Source: Pseudorhodoferax sp. Leaf267
Lineage (GTDB): Bacteria; Pseudomonadota; Gammaproteobacteria; Burkholderiales; Burkholderiaceae_C
Assembly (NCBI RefSeq): GCF_001422405.1
Contig: NZ_LMMV01000002.1
Location: 1-64,000, forward strand
Length of the DNA: 64,000 bases
Direction: 5' to 3'
The notes beneath the pieces were generated by a model. The model had not been told where the DNA came from. It made no database searches and saw only the letters and a list, made by a program, of their open reading frames with translations. Below, one piece after another: positions 39,125 through 48,510 of the stretch. A program made the translations under genes and the position numbers. Numbering within the stretch: position 1 is the first letter of the stretch; the number at the start of each line of letters is the position of its first letter.

Positions 39125-39607
39125 ATGCCCCTGCCCCGCGTTGCCATCCAGACCGCCGACTTCGACCTGGGCGCCGAGGTCGCCGCGCTGCGCGCGCAGG
39201 ACGCGCGCATCGGCGCCGTCTGCAGCTTCCTGGGCACGGTGCGCGACCGCCATCCCGACGTGGCCGGCGCCGTCACGGCCTTGGAGCTGGAGCACTACCC
39301 CGGCATGACCGAGCGCGCCATCGAGGCCATGGTCGACGAGGCCTTCGCGCGCTTCGACATCCACGCCGCGCGCGTGGTGCACCGCGTCGGCCCGCTGCTG
39401 CCGCTGGACCAGATCGTGCTGGTGGCCGTGGCGTCTGCGCACCGCGGCGTGGCCTTCCAGGCCTGCGAATTCCTGATGGACTACCTCAAGACCCAGGCGC
39501 CCTTCTGGAAGAAGGAGCAGACGGCCCAGGGCGCACGCTGGGTCGATGCACGCGTCAGCGACGACCAGGCCCTGGCGCGCTGGGGCATCGCGGCGCGCAA
39601 CGCCTGA
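39125..39607 (+). CDS. moaE: Molybdopterin synthase catalytic subunit
   Basis: A 160-residue MoaE. It has FLGTVRDRHPDVAGAVTALE, LELEHYPGMTERAI, VHRVGPLLPLDQIVLVAVAS and the active-site region APFWKKEQTAQGARWVDAR with catalytic lysines. With MoaD-thiocarboxylate it converts cPMP to molybdopterin. It has its own upstream region, unlike the usual tight moaD-moaE pair. It ends 15 bases before the convergent regulator gene. Confidence 0.95.
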   Translation: MPLPRVAIQTADFDLGAEVAALRAQDARIGAVCSFLGTVRDRHPDVAGAVTALELEHYPGMTERAIEAMVDEAFARFDIHAARVVHRVGPLLPLDQIVLVAVASAHRGVAFQACEFLMDYLKTQAPFWKKEQTAQGARWVDARVSDDQALARWGIAARNA

Positions 39608-39621
39608 ACGGGGCGGGCGGG

Positions 39622-42057
39622 TCAGCGCGGCGCTGCCGGGGGCGTGTCGGCGCGCTCCAGGGCGGCGCGCGCCTCGGCCACGGCCAGCCGCCTGTCCAGC
39701 GCATAGCCCTCGGCCATCGCGGTCTCGAACGCGACCATGCCCAGTGCCGCGCGCAGCTGGGCGATGCGCGGCAGCAGCAGGGCTTCGATCGCGGGCTGGC
39801 GGCGCTGGCGCATCTGGTCGATGCAGGCCTGCCCGGCGCCGTACAGGCGTGCGGCCTGCGCGCTCTGGCCGGCCAGCGCGGCCCAGCCGGCGAACGCGTC
39901 CAGCGCCATCTGCTCCAGCGACTCGTGGTGGATGTCCTGCGCGATCCGGATCGCGTCCAGCAGGTAGCTGGCCCCGGCCGCCACGTCGCCCAGGCCGATC
40001 GACACCCAGGCCACGTTGAGCAGGCTCAGGCCCACGTGGATCGGCGTGCCGCGCGCATGGGCCAGCACCAGCGATTCCTCGAACAGGGGGCGCGCCGCGG
40101 CCAGCTCGTTGAACGCCAGGTGCACCACGCCCATGGCCAGGATGGCCTGGTTCAGCACCGCGCGGTCACCGGTGCTGCGCGCCAGCGCCAGCGCGGCCGC
40201 GCAGTGCGTGCGCGCGGCCGGGCGGTCGCCATGGCCCAGGCAGGCGATGCCCAGCCACAGCTGCGACTGCGCCATCTGGCGCTGCCCGCCCAGGCTGCGC
40301 GCCAGCTCCAGGCTGTCCTTCAGCAGCGCGATGGCGTCGGCGTACTGGCCCAGGAAGTAGGCCAGTTCGCCGACCGCGGAGATGGCCTGGGCCTTGGTCA
40401 GGCTGGGCGCGGCGTCCCGCGCCGAGACCAGCGCGCGCATGCCGACCTGGTAGCCCAGGTCCGCCGTGCCGCGGCTGCGCCAGTAGCCTTGCAGGCAGGC
40501 GACCAGGCGCAGCACGCAGTCGTCCGTGGGCGGTGTCTCGTCGCCCCAGGCATGGGCCAGCAGCAGGTTCTCGCGGTCCGCGTCCAGCTGCAGCAGCCAC
40601 TCGCGCTGCCGCGGCCCCTGCAGCTTGGCCACGCCCGACTCGACCCAGCCCGCCATGTAGTGCAGGTGCCGCATGCGCGCCGCCGCGGCCTCGCCGTGCA
40701 GCTGCAGCTGTTCGCTGGCGAACAGGCGCACCGTCTCCAGCAGGCCGTAGCGTGACTCGTCGTCGGTCTGCGGCACCACCACCACCAGCGACTGGTCGAC
40801 CAGGGCCGACAGCGCATCGAGCACCTCCAGCTCGTCGGCCTCGTCGCCGGACACCGCCACCATCGCCTGCAGCGTCCAGCTGCCTGCGAACATGCCTGCG
40901 CAGCGGAACAGCCGCTGCAGTGGCGGCGGCAGCTGGTCGTAGCTCCACTGGATCGTGGCGCGCAGCGTCTGCACGCGCGGCTGGTTGCGCGCCGCACCGG
41001 TCAGCAGCCGGAAACGGTCGCCCAGGCGTTCCTGGATCTGCGGCAGCGACAGCACGTTGGCGCGCGCCGCCGCCAGCTCCAGCGCCAGCGGGATGCCGTC
41101 CAGGTGCCGGCAGATGTCGGCCACCACGCGCGCATTGCCCTCGCCGAGCCGGAACTCGGGGTTCACCCATTGCAGCCGGTCGACGAACAGGCGCACGGCG
41201 TCGAAGCCGTCGGCCGCGGCCGGTGCGCTGGCCGGCGGGCAGGCCAGCGGCGGCAGCAGGAACACGCGCTCGTCGGCCAGGTTCAGCGGGATGCGGCTGG
41301 TGGCCAGCACGCGCACCTGCGGGCAGGTGCGCAGCAGCGTGGCAATGAGGGCGCCTGCCGTGGCGGCCACATGCTCGCAGTTGTCCATGACGATCAGGCA
41401 CTGGCGCGCCGCGAGGTGCTGCACCAGGCGATCGAGCAGTGTGGTGCCCGGCTTTTCGAACACGCCCAGCGCGGCGCCCAGCACCAGCGGCACGCGCGTG
41501 GCGTCCTGCAGCGGCGCCAGGTCGATGAACCACGCGCCGTCGGCCTGGGCGGGCAGCAGCTGGCGCGCCAGCTGCATGGCCATGCGCGTCTTGCCGCAGC
41601 CGCCGATGGCCACCAGCGTCAGCAGCCGCGCGTCGGCCAGCACTTGCCGGCACTCGGCCAGTTCGTGCGCGCGGCCGATGAAGCGGCTGCGCTCGGGCGC
41701 CAGGTTGTGCCGCAGCGCCGTGTCGGCCGGCGCGGCCGCGGCGTCCGTCGCGGCACCCTGTTCCACCACCGGCATGACGAGCCGGTAGCCACGGCCGGCC
41801 ACCGTCGCGATGGCCTGCGCACCCAGCACCTTGCGCAGGGACGAAATCTGCACCTGCAGGTTGTTCTCTTCGACGACGAGCCCGGGCCACACGCGGTCGA
41901 GCAGCTCGCTCTTGCCGACCACGCGGTCGCGGTGCTGCAGCAACACCTCCAGCAAATCGAAAGCCCGGGCACCGATGGCGACAGAAATGCCATCGACGAG
42001 GATTCGGCGTTCCTGCAGCCGGATCTCGGTCCGTCCAGAGCGGTACAGCGAAGCCAT
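39622..42057 (-). CDS. Winged-helix transcriptional regulator with P-loop NTPase and TPR-like C-terminus
   Basis: An 811-residue cytoplasmic regulator. Residues 1-97 form an OmpR/PhoB-type winged helix (LLEVLLQHRDRVVGKSELLD, then VAGRGYRLVMPV). Next is a STAND-like AAA+ ATPase with Walker A GGCGKT (152-157) and Walker B LIVMDNCEHV. The remaining ~450 residues are alpha-helical TPR-like repeats (AKAQAISAVGELAYFLGQYA, ARSLGGQRQMAQSQLWLG) ending near 800. There is no receiver domain, so it is likely controlled by a ligand sensed by the TPR part. It lies downstream of, and parallel to, the lodA/lodB-like pair after a 106-base gap, with its own start at 42057. Confidence 0.88.
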   Translation of the reverse strand: MASLYRSGRTEIRLQERRILVDGISVAIGARAFDLLEVLLQHRDRVVGKSELLDRVWPGLVVEENNLQVQISSLRKVLGAQAIATVAGRGYRLVMPVVEQGAATDAAAAPADTALRHNLAPERSRFIGRAHELAECRQVLADARLLTLVAIGGCGKTRMAMQLARQLLPAQADGAWFIDLAPLQDATRVPLVLGAALGVFEKPGTTLLDRLVQHLAARQCLIVMDNCEHVAATAGALIATLLRTCPQVRVLATSRIPLNLADERVFLLPPLACPPASAPAAADGFDAVRLFVDRLQWVNPEFRLGEGNARVVADICRHLDGIPLALELAAARANVLSLPQIQERLGDRFRLLTGAARNQPRVQTLRATIQWSYDQLPPPLQRLFRCAGMFAGSWTLQAMVAVSGDEADELEVLDALSALVDQSLVVVVPQTDDESRYGLLETVRLFASEQLQLHGEAAAARMRHLHYMAGWVESGVAKLQGPRQREWLLQLDADRENLLLAHAWGDETPPTDDCVLRLVACLQGYWRSRGTADLGYQVGMRALVSARDAAPSLTKAQAISAVGELAYFLGQYADAIALLKDSLELARSLGGQRQMAQSQLWLGIACLGHGDRPAARTHCAAALALARSTGDRAVLNQAILAMGVVHLAFNELAAARPLFEESLVLAHARGTPIHVGLSLLNVAWVSIGLGDVAAGASYLLDAIRIAQDIHHESLEQMALDAFAGWAALAGQSAQAARLYGAGQACIDQMRQRRQPAIEALLLPRIAQLRAALGMVAFETAMAEGYALDRRLAVAEARAALERADTPPAAPR

Positions 42058-42163
42058 CCTTCCCCCTGTGGTGCAAGCGTGCGATGCGCGTCCCGCCGTC
42101 GACGGGATGCCGCCGTCGCCGAAGCGGACGGCTGGCGGGCATTGTGCATGGGAAGGGGCGCGC

Positions 42164-43267
42164 TCAGGAACTCGCGACGGCCTCGCGCTGGCGCCGCTGC
42201 CAGTAGGGCTGGCCGGCGAAACGCACGGCCTCGCGGTACAAGCCCAGCCGCATGCGCGCATACAGCGCATGGGCGTGGTCGAGTGCGTCCGCATAGCGCT
42301 GCACGGCGGTGCCATCGCCGGCCAGGCTGGCAGACAGCGCCTGCCCGGCCTCGATGCCGCTGTGCAGCGCCACGGTCAAGCCGTGGGCCGACAGCGGGTC
42401 GTAGCGCATGGCGGCGTCGCCCACCGCCAGCCAGCCCGGGCCTGCGAACCGGGCCAGGCGCGCGCTGGCAGCCGGCGTGAAGGCGGGCGCGCCGGCCAGC
42501 ACCGCGCCATGCTGCTGCAGCCGCGTCCACGTCAGCGGCGCGCCGGCCAGCAGCGCCTGCCAGCCGGCGGCCGTGCGCAGCGCGCGGTGGTCGTGCAGAT
42601 CGGCGTCGGTAAAGAACATGGCGGACCACCGCCCCTGCGGCAGCGGCGCGCAATACCACCAGCCCCGGGGCACGGCCTCGATCAGGCTCGCGGTGTCGGC
42701 CGGCAGGCCAGGCGCCTGCAGCGTCGCCACCAGGGCCACCTGGGCATCGTCCTGCAGCCGGGCCACGCCCTGGTGACGTGCGAACCAGCTGGCCTGGCCG
42801 CTGGCGTCGACGACCCAGCGCGCCTGCCAGCGGCGCGGGCCATGCTGGCCCTGCCAGCCAGCAGCGTCTGGCACGATGGCCGGCGGCGCATCGAAGCTGT
42901 CGATGTCGGCGCCCAGCGCGCGCGCCCGCTCCACGAGGCGGCGGTCGAACACCGCGCGGTCGATGTGGAACCCATGGCCTTGCGGGTGGTGGATGAAGTC
43001 GAAGTGCCGGGGCGTGGACGTGGCCCAGGCCGAGCGGTTGCCGTGGCAGGCCAGATGCCCGTCGGCCTCGAACGCCTGCCACACGCCCAGGCGGCGCAGC
43101 AGGTGCTTGGCGTCCGGCGCCAGGCTGTCGCCCGGGGGCGTCGGGGCGGGCCGTGCGGGCGCCAGCACCAGCACGCGGTGCGCCGCGCGGCGCAGGCTGA
43201 TGGCCGCGGCCATGGCCGCCGGGCCGCGGCCCAGCACGGCCACGTCGAAGCATTCGGCCGGGTTCAA
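42164..43267 (-). CDS. LodB-like FAD-dependent oxidoreductase (quinocofactor maturation)
   Basis: A 367-residue flavoprotein with the N-terminal dinucleotide-binding motif FDVAVLGRGPAAMAAA and the late WLAVGDAAMRYDPLSAHG (GD) motif of FAD monooxygenases/halogenases. Beside a LodA-like gene it is the expected LodB partner, needed to build the cysteine tryptophylquinone cofactor of LodA-type oxidases. The start is not an ATG: TTG at 43267 overlaps the upstream stop (TTGA), implying tight translational coupling; a GTG farther upstream is possible. Confidence 0.83.
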   Translation of the reverse strand: MNPAECFDVAVLGRGPAAMAAAISLRRAAHRVLVLAPARPAPTPPGDSLAPDAKHLLRRLGVWQAFEADGHLACHGNRSAWATSTPRHFDFIHHPQGHGFHIDRAVFDRRLVERARALGADIDSFDAPPAIVPDAAGWQGQHGPRRWQARWVVDASGQASWFARHQGVARLQDDAQVALVATLQAPGLPADTASLIEAVPRGWWYCAPLPQGRWSAMFFTDADLHDHRALRTAAGWQALLAGAPLTWTRLQQHGAVLAGAPAFTPAASARLARFAGPGWLAVGDAAMRYDPLSAHGLTVALHSGIEAGQALSASLAGDGTAVQRYADALDHAHALYARMRLGLYREAVRFAGQPYWQRRQREAVASS

Positions 43268-45129
43268 CGCTCGCGCGCCGGGTCGTGCGTCCACAGCGGC
43301 GTCGTCGCCGCGCCCTGCGCCGTGCCAGGCAGCGTGCGGCCGGTCTCCACCCACAGCCGGGCCGGCAGCGCGGGCTGGTCGCTGGGCCCGGGCCGGCGCG
43401 TCACCATGCCGATGTGCGGCCATTCTGTGATGAACACGGCGCGCGGGTTGGGGTCGGTGATCAACGCCGGCGGGTCGCTGTCGGGCTGGTAGACGATGCC
43501 GCGCAGCCATTTGGGCCGGTGCACCGGGTCGAACGCGCGCATCCGCTCGTCCAGCGGCAGCGCCGGGTCCATCAGGGTCTGGTACTGCGCCTCGGTCAGC
43601 ACGTCGTTGGGCACACGCGCGGGCCAGAAGGTCGGCAGGTATTCGCCGCTCCAGGGCCGGTAGGCGGACAGGCAGCTGGCGGTGTCGGTCTGCCACGGGC
43701 AGGCCATCCAGCGCGTCAGGCTCCCGGGCGCGCAGCCGTCCAGCGGGCCGCCTGGGGCCATGGCGCCGGCGGAGGTCAACACCGGGCCGGCGTCGGGCTC
43801 CTCTCCCTGGCGGCGGCGCAACCGGAACGGCGCGGAGTACAGCGTGGGCTGGCGCATCGGCCATGTGAACTCGCAGCCGGGGTGGAACGGCCCGCCCGTG
43901 GTCTCGTCGAGCACGGCGCGGTCCAGGCCCTGGGCCTGCTCGGCCGGCGTGCGCTCGTCCCAGGGCTTGGGCGGGGGCGGCAGGCCGTCGGCGATGAAGT
44001 CGCCCCCGGCCCATTGCGCCAGCAGCGCGTACTGCGTGGGCAGGATCGCCATCCAGTTGCGCGGGTCGGTCGAGCCTGCGTCCACGGTGGCGGCATCGCC
44101 GTAGACACCCGGCCAGGCATCGGCCTGCTGCCATCCGTAGTCCGCATGCCGGAAGCGGTTGAACACGGCGCTGCGCAGCGGCTGGGCAGCCGGCGACGGG
44201 TCGTTCAGCCGCCGCAGCAGCTCCGCGCCGCGAAAGTCGTTGGCCGCGCCCCAGCCGAACTCCAGCGCGAAGCCGGCGTTGACCCATTGCGCGTCCGAGA
44301 AGCGCGACAGCAGCGGAAAGATGTCGGTGGAAAAGCGCGGACGCGGCGGCCGCAGCGTCGTGTCCAGCGCGCAGCCCACCTCGCGCAGCAGGTCCCAGCC
44401 CGTCACCAGCGCCTGCACGCCAGGCGCGAAGTCCGGCGGCGCCACGACCACCCAGGCACCGTCGGCCTGCAGCGCACGGCCATCGAGCACCACGCTCGCC
44501 TGCACCGGCCCGTCGCAGGTGTCGTCGTGCCAGCCGTCGTTGTTGGCAAAGCCGCTGGGCGGCACATCGTCGTGCGAGGCCGACTTGCCGTGGCCGCCCA
44601 GGAAGATCAGCCGGCCGGCCTCGTCGGTGCGCAGCTCGCCCAGATAGACCGGCCTGCCGTAGAAGCAGCCGTCATCGAATGCCTGGCCGCTCTGGCGGCT
44701 GCCGCCGATGGAGCGCGGCCGCGGCCGGATGCGCAGCTGCTCGCGCGCTGCTCCCTGCACGCTGCGGTTGCGGCGCAGGCTGGCCAGCGCGGGCACGCCC
44801 GGCAGGTCGCCGCGGCTGGCCGGAATGTCCATGGCCTGGTCGAAGTTGAACCAGGCAGCCTTCTCGTTGGCCACCTGCACGCTCCAGGTGATGGGCCCGT
44901 CGGCAAGCGTCACCTCGCGTACGACCTGGCCCGCGGCGTCCAGCCCGTACAGCCGAAAGCGCGCCGCCTGTCGCTTGATGCGGCCCTGTGCGTCGCGGTA
45001 GTTCTCGCCATCGCCAGGCTGCTGGCCGGGCACCTCGGGGCCGAAGAAGAATGCATCGGGGCTGTCGCCCACGCGTGCAATGCCGATGGACGGATAGATG
45101 GCCACGCGTTCGACGCGGTTCGTTGTCAT
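43264..45129 (-). CDS. LodA-like cysteine tryptophylquinone-dependent amino-acid oxidase
   Basis: A 621-residue LodA/GoxA-family protein. It shows the family N-terminus (VERVAIYPSIGIARVGDSPD, RIKRQAARFRLYG), FLGGHGKSASHDDV, NDGWHDDTCDGPV, and the C-terminal block GGPFHPGCEFTW (C419) ... LTRWMACPWQTDT (W479) ... YLPTFWPARVPNDVL. C419 and W479, 60 residues apart, are candidates for the CTQ crosslink, by analogy with LodA C516 and W581. Known members oxidise L-lysine (epsilon), glycine or other amino acids, releasing H2O2, which can be antibacterial. No signal peptide is obvious. The substrate here is unknown. GGGAG precedes ATG 45129. Confidence 0.88.
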   Translation of the reverse strand: MTTNRVERVAIYPSIGIARVGDSPDAFFFGPEVPGQQPGDGENYRDAQGRIKRQAARFRLYGLDAAGQVVREVTLADGPITWSVQVANEKAAWFNFDQAMDIPASRGDLPGVPALASLRRNRSVQGAAREQLRIRPRPRSIGGSRQSGQAFDDGCFYGRPVYLGELRTDEAGRLIFLGGHGKSASHDDVPPSGFANNDGWHDDTCDGPVQASVVLDGRALQADGAWVVVAPPDFAPGVQALVTGWDLLREVGCALDTTLRPPRPRFSTDIFPLLSRFSDAQWVNAGFALEFGWGAANDFRGAELLRRLNDPSPAAQPLRSAVFNRFRHADYGWQQADAWPGVYGDAATVDAGSTDPRNWMAILPTQYALLAQWAGGDFIADGLPPPPKPWDERTPAEQAQGLDRAVLDETTGGPFHPGCEFTWPMRQPTLYSAPFRLRRRQGEEPDAGPVLTSAGAMAPGGPLDGCAPGSLTRWMACPWQTDTASCLSAYRPWSGEYLPTFWPARVPNDVLTEAQYQTLMDPALPLDERMRAFDPVHRPKWLRGIVYQPDSDPPALITDPNPRAVFITEWPHIGMVTRRPGPSDQPALPARLWVETGRTLPGTAQGAATTPLWTHDPARER

Positions 45130-45200
45130 GTCTGCTCCCGGGCTGCCTGGTGGCGGGAGCCGCTTGTCCCACGGCGCGCAGGCCAGGGCAAGCGTTTTAG

Positions 45201-45216
45201 CGGTGGCGCGCCACCG
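45201..45216. promoter_or_regulatory. Perfect 16-bp palindrome upstream of the lodA-like gene
   Basis: CGGTGGCG/CGCCACCG is a perfect palindrome with outer arms AGCGTT (45191-45196) and AACGCT (45224-45229), offset by three bases. It lies 72 bases before the lodA-like start and 20 bases after the stop of the preceding minus-strand gene. It could be an operator or a hairpin terminator, but no T-tract follows. Confidence 0.5.
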
Positions 45217-45235
45217 ATTTCAGAACGCTTCAGGT

Positions 45236-45808
45236 TCAGTTGAGATAGCGCCGCGGTGGCTCCAGCGGCCCCGGCCCGGTGTCGGGCTCGGCCAGCTCGC
45301 CGGGCACGCCCGCGCGCCACTGCGCGGCCGCGATGGCCTGCTCCAGCAGGTGCGTGAAGCCATGGATCAGCGCCCCGCGCAGCTCGAGCTGGAAACCGCG
45401 CGGCGTCGGCAGGTCGGGCAGCTTTTCCTGGAACGCGATCTGCAGGGCCCCGCTGGCGTGCGGCGTGATGCGCACCTCGCTGACCAGCAGCGGCTCGGCG
45501 CCCAGCGGCAGCGCGGCCTTCTCGGCGCTCTGGTAGGGCGCCGTGAAGTTGGCCTTGCTCAGGGCCGCCTCGCGCTCGAAGGCGCCGATGGCCTGGCGTG
45601 CCGCCTGGTCGGCCGGCGCCGGCCGGCCCGCGGCCACGGCGGCCAGCTCCCCGGCCTGGACCACGGCCTTGTTCAGCACGGGCCACAGGCCCAGCACCAG
45701 CCGGCGTGTGAACCACAGGCGCAGCTCTTCGCCCTGCGCGGTGTTGATGCGCACGAGGATGCGGTCCTGCTCCTCGCGGTAGGTGACGGAGACCTGGCGG
45801 ATGTCCAT
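45236..45808 (-). CDS. Conserved hypothetical protein
   Basis: A 190-residue soluble protein I do not recognise by family. The N-terminus (MDIRQVSVTYREEQDRILVR, then INTAQGEELRLWFTRRLVLG) looks like a beta-rich domain. The middle is Ala-rich and helical. The C-terminal part has LELRGALIHGFTHLLEQAIA and a Pro-rich tail. Coding bias is strong and the segment matches a type of protein often seen in Burkholderiales, but no function is assigned. It is divergent from clpB and upstream of the lodA-like gene. Confidence 0.7.
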   Translation of the reverse strand: MDIRQVSVTYREEQDRILVRINTAQGEELRLWFTRRLVLGLWPVLNKAVVQAGELAAVAAGRPAPADQAARQAIGAFEREAALSKANFTAPYQSAEKAALPLGAEPLLVSEVRITPHASGALQIAFQEKLPDLPTPRGFQLELRGALIHGFTHLLEQAIAAAQWRAGVPGELAEPDTGPGPLEPPRRYLN

Positions 45809-45857
45809 GGCCGGCGATTGTAGGCAGCCACCCACGGCCATCCGCGGGCGGCGGGCT

Positions 45858-45885
45858 CTTGAAAAACCCTGTTGCCGCCCTATGT
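45858..45885 (+). promoter_or_regulatory. Sigma-32 heat-shock promoter of clpB
   Basis: The -35 element CTTGAAA (45858-45864) and the -10-like CCCTATGT (45878-45885) are separated by 13 bases. This is close to the RpoH consensus CTTGAAA-N11-16-CCCCATNT. It is about 25 bases upstream of the clpB start codon, with AGGAG between them. Confidence 0.75.
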
Positions 45886-45910
45886 TTTGGGGAATCAGGA
45901 GAACGCACCC

Positions 45911-48510
<2,600 letters not shown>

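Follow-up and report, generated by a model that had tools for sequence, protein, structure and literature searches.

A probable LodA-like quinocofactor oxidase operon with an adjoining STAND-like regulator and a conserved direct repeat, a candidate operator, in Pseudorhodoferax sp. Leaf267

Oxidases that use cysteine tryptophylquinone (CTQ) are treated in PMC4417212 and PMC4699246 as being of interest as antimicrobial and biofilm-related sources of H2O2. On contig NZ_LMMV01000002.1 of Pseudorhodoferax sp. Leaf267 a gene for a predicted oxidase of this kind is followed by a gene for a flavoprotein maturase and by one for a large STAND-like regulator. Does the regulator belong to the oxidase and, if so, how might it act on it? 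The features that bear on this question are collected in Table 1; the window named there and below is the whole stretch of DNA that was analysed, with a length of 64,000 nucleotides.

Table 1. Features of the oxidase locus, in positions of the window
Feature	Position	Strand	Remarks
Block absent from five congeners	39608..45235		moaE-clpB comparison
Regulator gene	39622..42057	minus	811 aa (P0003); OmpR-type winged helix, P-loop NTPase (GGCGKT), TPR
lodB-like flavoprotein maturase gene	42164..43267	minus	367 aa (P0001); FAD_binding_3
lodA-like gene	43264..45129	minus	621 aa (P0002), CTQ-dependent oxidase; LodA_N and LodA_C (Pfam)
Codon of W502, predicted CTQ tryptophan	43624..43626	minus	aligned with residue 697 of PlGoxA, an X in 6eer
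Codon of C486, predicted CTQ cysteine	43672..43674	minus	aligned with PlGoxA C682, column of LodA C516
Promoter-like pair CTTGCC (-63) / GGGACAA (-41)	45164..45192	minus	conserved in three cassettes
Candidate operator CTGAAGCGTTCTGAAATCGG	45214..45233	minus	begins 104 nt before the lodA start codon
190-aa conserved gene, no Pfam family	45236..45808	minus	older moaE-clpB resident, outside the cassette

The TTG start of lodB overlaps the stop codon of lodA, the junction reading TTGA. Between lodB and the regulator gene there is a gap of 106 nt, and thus a separate promoter for the regulator could sit there. A preliminary description had already given the three reading frames with their strand, order, the 811-residue length and the TTGA junction, and had assigned them to a LodA-type oxidase, a LodB-type maturase and an adjoining STAND-like regulator. 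All of this was borne out and the Pfam domains agree. Its boundaries enclosed the three genes but left the promoter region with the candidate operator outside. Searches with Rfam at gathering scores and with PADLOC gave no match. In general, the oxidase and the maturase are ordinary members of their families, and what is new is the coupling to the regulator, the conserved repeat, and the corrected cofactor residues.

The lodA product matches LodA_N (270.7 bits, E 1.4e-80) and LodA_C (156 bits, E 7.2e-46), both above the Pfam cut-offs. The best NCBIfam model is GoxA, which with 404.7 bits does not reach the equivalog cut-off of 750, and the LodA model scores 196 bits against an equivalog cut-off of 600. 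Because these scores are far under the cut-offs, the oxidase is a member of the family but neither a LodA nor a GoxA equivalog. The AlphaFold2 model of the oxidase has a pLDDT of 88.9 (35 sequences), and the closest solved folds among Foldseek's top 1000 are GoxA (Z 36.7) and LodA (Z 32.4), followed by quinohemoprotein amine dehydrogenase (Z 7.2) and antibody domains (about 7). As modelled, the fold is LodA/GoxA-like.

Which residues form the cofactor can be predicted by alignment with the two characterised enzymes. The crosslinked residues of LodA are C516 and W581 (PMC4417212). In the LodA chain 3weu, C516 lies in PWQADFFNC, and an alignment with a LodA relative assigns W581 to the second Trp of YWW in YWWPPQ. 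The cofactor columns of PlGoxA are C682 and W697, with an X in 6eer at that Trp; the residue numbers of LodA (3weu) and PlGoxA were obtained by counting along the aligned chains. In the window oxidase these columns hold C486, in PWQTDTASC, and W502, in PTFW. None of the 97 aligned relatives departs from either residue, and W479 and D482 are equally invariant, the latter matching D678 of PlGoxA; the 97 rows are 100 loci minus L001 and L002, which are the query's own, and the unaligned L011, and include a few duplicates such as L013/L081 and L004/L083. The preliminary description had instead proposed C419 and W479 as the pair, which has to be rejected on the alignments with LodA and PlGoxA. The column of C419 has Cys in 81 of the 97 relatives, Ala in both closest orthologs, and Val in PlGoxA, while W479 is the Trp of PWQ and stands outside the cofactor column. 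The spacing of 60 residues that had been likened to the 65 of LodA is a coincidence, since the cofactor pair is 16 residues apart, as compared to 15 in PlGoxA and 65 in LodA. The correction keeps experimenters from mutating the wrong Cys and Trp. Column 419 directly follows an FHPG motif, the nearest orthologs carrying Ala there, and column 410, before the motif, has Cys in 80 of the 97 relatives and Thr in the window oxidase and its nearest orthologs.

Compared to the GoxA of Pseudoalteromonas luteoviolacea (6byw), a CTQ-dependent glycine oxidase, the window oxidase has the same predicted fold (Z 35.3-36.7 over 567-575 residues), the CTQ Cys and Trp, the Asp before the Cys, and equivalents of F194 and H416. 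In contrast, identity over the fold is only 30-32%, the protein has 621 instead of 816 residues, it stays under the NCBIfam cut-off, the YH motif is unmatched in the alignment, and in the window a regulator gene comes after lodB. With the L-lysine 6-oxidase LodA of Marinomonas mediterranea (3weu, 2ymw) it shares the fold (Z 31.3-32.4), the CTQ pair, and the order lodA-lodB. It differs from LodA in its score (196 bits, cut-off 600), in the Cys-Trp spacing (16 instead of 65), and in having H416 and F194 where LodA has C448 and Y211 (motif-matched, with counted numbers).

These comparisons bear on the substrate, which the preliminary description had left unassigned, and this stands, the oxidase being under both the LodA and the GoxA NCBIfam cut-offs. 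The protein could be a glycine oxidase and thus a GoxA ortholog, given that GoxA is the top NCBIfam model (405 bits) and that F194, H416, and D482 match F316, H583, and D678 of PlGoxA, sites whose mutants appear in PDB titles. However, 405 bits are far under the cut-off of 750, and the YH of Martelella GoxA, which corresponds to Y766/H767 of PlGoxA, lacks a counterpart His in the MAFFT alignment, where the window oxidase reads VYQ. In addition, of 98 family rows 85 have F at the column of F194 and 90 have H at that of H416, and because these residues are so frequent across the family they are no marker of glycine. We therefore regard a glycine oxidase as improbable. In a quickly built tree of 105 rows, in which long branches were flagged, the window oxidase groups with those of G781 and G473 (SH-aLRT 99), and Corallococcus praedator joins this group less surely (SH-aLRT 80). 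The window falls into a branch of 26 rows (SH-aLRT 86) beside a branch of 70 rows with the Streptomyces afghaniensis locus L046, the join having a support of 97. The S. afghaniensis protein has a catalase fusion, and according to PMC4417212 all such fusions belong to group III (Campillo-Brocal 2015), of which, as that paper states, no protein had been characterised by 2015.

The maturase scores 249.2 bits with the NCBIfam model GoxB and 183.8 bits with LodB, both below the cut-off of 400, and is, as judged by these models, a relative of LodB and GoxB and not an equivalog. Like LodB, GoxB, and QhpG it is related to flavoprotein monooxygenases and its gene adjoins lodA, but it stays under all three equivalog cut-offs (400, 400, and 240). 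A lodB-like gene lies within 4.5 kb of lodA in 104 of 107 loci; in two of the remaining three the contig ends there, and in L016 the gene narrowly misses the E cut-off. For LodA and GoxA the first hydroxylation of the Trp is thought in PMC7876137 to be spontaneous, and the flavoprotein to add the second hydroxyl and the crosslink.

The regulator matches Trans_reg_C (60.8 bits) and TPR_12 (34.2 bits) above the Pfam cut-offs. AAA_22 remains at 26.0 bits, slightly below its cut-off of 27, with the P-loop GGCGKT present, and nSTAND1 matches, also sub-cut-off, are listed for the relatives L077 and L205 only. A BTAD domain after the winged helix was not found in P0003 by Pfam at E 0.001. The structure model is confident for the TPR part and poor elsewhere (pLDDT 53). 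The architecture combines a DNA-binding effector domain with a repeat sensor, as is the case in STAND regulators. MalT has a C-terminal HTH of the LuxR type, whereas the OmpR-type winged helix of the window regulator is at its N end. The logic of an NTPase with a sensor is common to both, MalT being a STAND activator that requires inducer and ATP (PMC10936776). AfsR, the STAND/SARP activator of Streptomyces, is also alike in its N-terminal DNA-binding part, NTPase, and TPR (PMC10936776), but the window regulator has no listed BTAD and adjoins an oxidase operon. In AfsR, as described in PMC10936776, the NTPase and TPR parts restrain the DNA-binding part, which is freed by ATP. At another locus (L205:6615-10310) a frame of 1231 residues with GMC oxidoreductase and alpha/beta hydrolase domains lies tail-to-tail with a paralog regulator from the window's own genome.

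The oxidase is sparsely distributed. LodA_C was found in two of 60 near relatives, ten of 369 class genomes, and 11 of 399 family genomes, one of them sub-cut-off and the window genome always counted, and an oxidase match is absent from all five congeners. There, moaE and clpB are separated by about 80 nt, and in the window by some 6.3 kb. Part of this distance is taken up by the conserved 190-aa gene, which is also found between clpB and moaE in L179, L181, and L182, from several genera, and was not found in the five congeners. Because this gene is older, lodA, lodB, and the regulator gene were either inserted between moaE and the 190-aa gene, or they were retained here while the congeners lost them along with that gene. 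A gain of the cassette is the likelier course in view of its sporadic distribution, and it would thus have been acquired rather than lost elsewhere. Repeats at the ends of the insert were not found in the end stretches 39560-39680 and 45780-45960. The G+C content of the block (about 0.71-0.76) is similar to or slightly above that of the left flank and above that of the right flank, and thus says little. To the right of the inserted block, a TTGAAA-16-TATGTT stretch precedes clpB (45859-45886), with a similar stretch in the congeners, and we take this to be, perhaps, the heat-shock promoter of clpB.

Is the regulator tied to lodA and lodB? As a general partner of lodA it has to be dismissed, because 104 of 107 lodA-like loci are without such a regulator (81 of the 107 offer at least 4 kb after and at least 3 kb before lodA, and at least two pairs are duplicates). 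The three loci that have it nearby are L124 (G781), L126 (G473), and L077. L124 and L126, from two other genera of the same family, have the gene order and strand of the window, with identities of 64.5 and 63% for LodA, 50 and 49% for LodB, and 53 and 51% for the regulator (range 51-55%). They are the only two orthologs found whose LodA is more than 60% identical, and both have the regulator in the same place, starting 12 nt after lodB in L124, where the contig ends inside the regulator gene, and 38 nt after it in L126. The preliminary description had tied its case to the regulator accompanying lodA and lodB in relatives, which fails across the family (three of 107) and holds in the two nearest orthologs. 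The locus L077 is of a different kind, with a regulator of 36% identity that is divergent from a lodA of another branch. In a search of 398 family genomes, in which two candidates were scored per genome and matches at E 1e-100 were listed, the regulators of G781 and G473 are the best matches (757 and 713 bits); the next one has 515 bits and 42% identity. Such a match is present in 30 of the 398 genomes, the window genome counted, and the window genome itself has a 42% identical paralog elsewhere. Searches centred on G473 and on G781, with 249 genomes in each, yielded no more cassettes, and the lodA matches that were added from G795 and G860 are 46-47% identical, their loci L203 and L204 being without such a regulator. 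Besides lodB, the neighbours common in the wider clade are only shadow frames and sets of three to four loci.

Given that most lodA-like loci do without it and that such regulators are common in the family, the regulator might be a passenger behind lodAB that controls something else. However, it is placed alike in the three closest members found, the other two regulators are the best matches of the window regulator among the 398 genomes, and in these two the gap to lodB is short (12 and 38 nt). Together with the confinement of the repeat described below to these lodA promoters, among those scanned, this makes a passenger very unlikely, and a regulator dedicated to the oxidase genes is the preferred reading. 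Among the matches listed in our search of the open-access literature we found no description of a lodA-lodB-STAND operon, and the word 'regulator' does not occur in the main text of PMC4417212. In its reference list the sensor kinase PpoS is given as a controller of the enzyme from M. mediterranea. Another form of adjacent control is seen in the Janthinobacterium loci L058, L063, and L070, where a two-component pair of response regulator and histidine kinase is divergent upstream of lodA. A hybrid histidine kinase is divergent from lodA in G473 (L126:4924-7719); it matches GAF and HAMP and, below the cut-off, Cache.

A site at which the regulator could act is suggested by a direct repeat, CTGAA-N5-CTGAA, that is present before lodA in all three cassettes: CTGAAGCGTTCTGAAATCGG in the window (-104), CTGAAGCGTCCTGAATTCGG in L124 (-102), and CTGAATCGTGCTGAATCCGC in L126 (-101). 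Fifteen of its 20 columns are identical across the three cassette genomes known, and 400 dinucleotide shuffles gave at most nine. The pattern CTGAANCGNNCTGAANNCG has a single match in the window (0.02 expected), and the three cassette places are its only matches among 214 loci. CTGAA-N5-CTGAA is found in none of the 320-nt stretches that precede the lodA match at 77 loci outside the cassettes; in its strict form it occurs once in the window and three times in 1.3 Mb (L077, L124, and L126). Each cassette has different genes upstream of lodA, and thus the conservation of the repeat goes with lodA. A sigma-70 consensus promoter was not matched before the window lodA. The promoter-like pair has counterparts in the other two cassettes, CTTGCA/CTTGCC at -61 and -60 and GGCACAA/GGGACAA at -38 and -37. 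A palindrome, CGGTGGCGCGCCACCG at 45201-45216, is the best in the lodA upstream of the window and overlaps the end of the repeat, but it was discarded because the palindromes listed for the other cassettes do not include it; as RNA, this stretch folds unremarkably (z -1.3).

Sister regulators offer a comparison for this repeat. The regulator of L077, which has the same ENNLQV helix as the window regulator, has CTGAATCGTTCTGAA before its own gene, the repeat facing the regulator about 540 nt from lodA. In L214, with an NNLQV helix, CTGAAATCAAGCTGAA is found upstream with a spacing of N6. The other eight of the ten NNLQV regulators (L142-L146, L152, L205, and L212) are without a CTGAA pair in the 350 nt before their own start, and none is present in the aligned upstream stretches of the paralogs from the window's own genus. 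A second helix type shows another repeat. Just upstream of six of seven sister regulators with an [EP]HN[IV] helix (L206, L207, L208, L209, L211, and L213) TTGA half-sites recur in tandem three or four times at a period of 10-11 bp and point away from the regulator, while a TTGA triple precedes only one of 22 regulators with other helices. The exceptions are L198, which has the helix without the triple, and L165, which has the triple with another helix. The count covers 29 distinct homologs with a readable winged helix; the two cassette regulators were set aside, duplicates were counted once, and ten loci without a winged helix were omitted. TTGA triples are absent from 877,720 bases of high-GC loci, and the 1,339,744 bases of all 80 named lodA loci contain two. 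Because the sister regulators are related, these helix and repeat counts are not independent, and they suggest a correspondence rather than test it. In L206, L207, L211, and L213 the TTGA triples are directed towards a conserved gene that is divergent from the regulator and has about 315-355 residues as called; the one from L207, the sole member scanned, matches an AurF N-oxygenase with 22.9 bits, under the cut-off of 29.6.

Direct repeats with a period of 10-11 bp suit winged helices of the OmpR type, and the repeat of the cassettes fits this period. The repeat might instead belong to the core promoter or serve some other factor as its site, because its pairing with the regulator is a prediction, the conserved CTTGCC/GGGACAA pair is close by, and eight of the ten sister regulators with the NNLQV helix lack a CTGAA pair upstream. 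Apart from the fitting period, the accompaniment of TTGA triples by the [EP]HN[IV] helix in six of seven sister regulators and the recurrence of the CTGAA pattern before the L077 regulator argue against this, so that we consider such a site unlikely, though less so than a passenger regulator. An operator bound by the window regulator is thus the reading that we follow.

Taken together, it is likely, though well short of certain, that the locus is a horizontally acquired operon of a CTQ oxidase with a dedicated STAND-type regulator that activates it from the direct repeat. C486 and W502 would be converted to cysteine tryptophylquinone with the help of the LodB-like flavoprotein, and the mature enzyme would oxidise a primary amine or amino acid to an aldehyde or keto acid, ammonia, and H2O2. 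The N-terminal OmpR-type winged helix of the regulator would bind CTGAA-N5-CTGAA about 100 nt before lodA and activate transcription once an effector has arrived at the TPR part and ATP at the NTPase part. The amine, the amino acid, or its product may be what switches on the regulator, so that lodA, lodB, and the regulator gene, presumably transcribed together, would be activated. Because the regulator gene closes the operon, positive feedback would result. Since the sequence gives no direction of control, the regulator could also repress the operon and be relieved by the effector. However, the repeat is about 22 nt upstream of the promoter-like pair and not on it, and the STAND regulators of PMC10936776, AfsR and MalT, are activators; repression is accordingly quite unlikely and activation is to be preferred.

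The sister regulators allow a wider and more tentative view, which we hold to be possible but not yet probable: the window regulator may belong to a class of proteobacterial one-component switches that recurs in the family and is undescribed in the sense that no description was found in the literature searched. In this class an OmpR-type winged helix, a STAND NTPase, and TPR would stand beside redox enzymes, and a helix-to-operator code would assign CTGAA pairs to NNLQV and three or four TTGA half-sites to [EP]HN[IV], the period being 10-11 bp in both. The branch of the window would have captured a CTQ oxidase, thereby making its H2O2 output inducible. If true, the correspondence between helix and repeat would predict targets for a large class of regulators. 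Most groups of CTQ oxidases have no assigned substrate, and the dedicated regulator together with its predicted site offers a way in, because with a dedicated regulator the inducer of the operon is likely to be the substrate or a close relative of the substrate.
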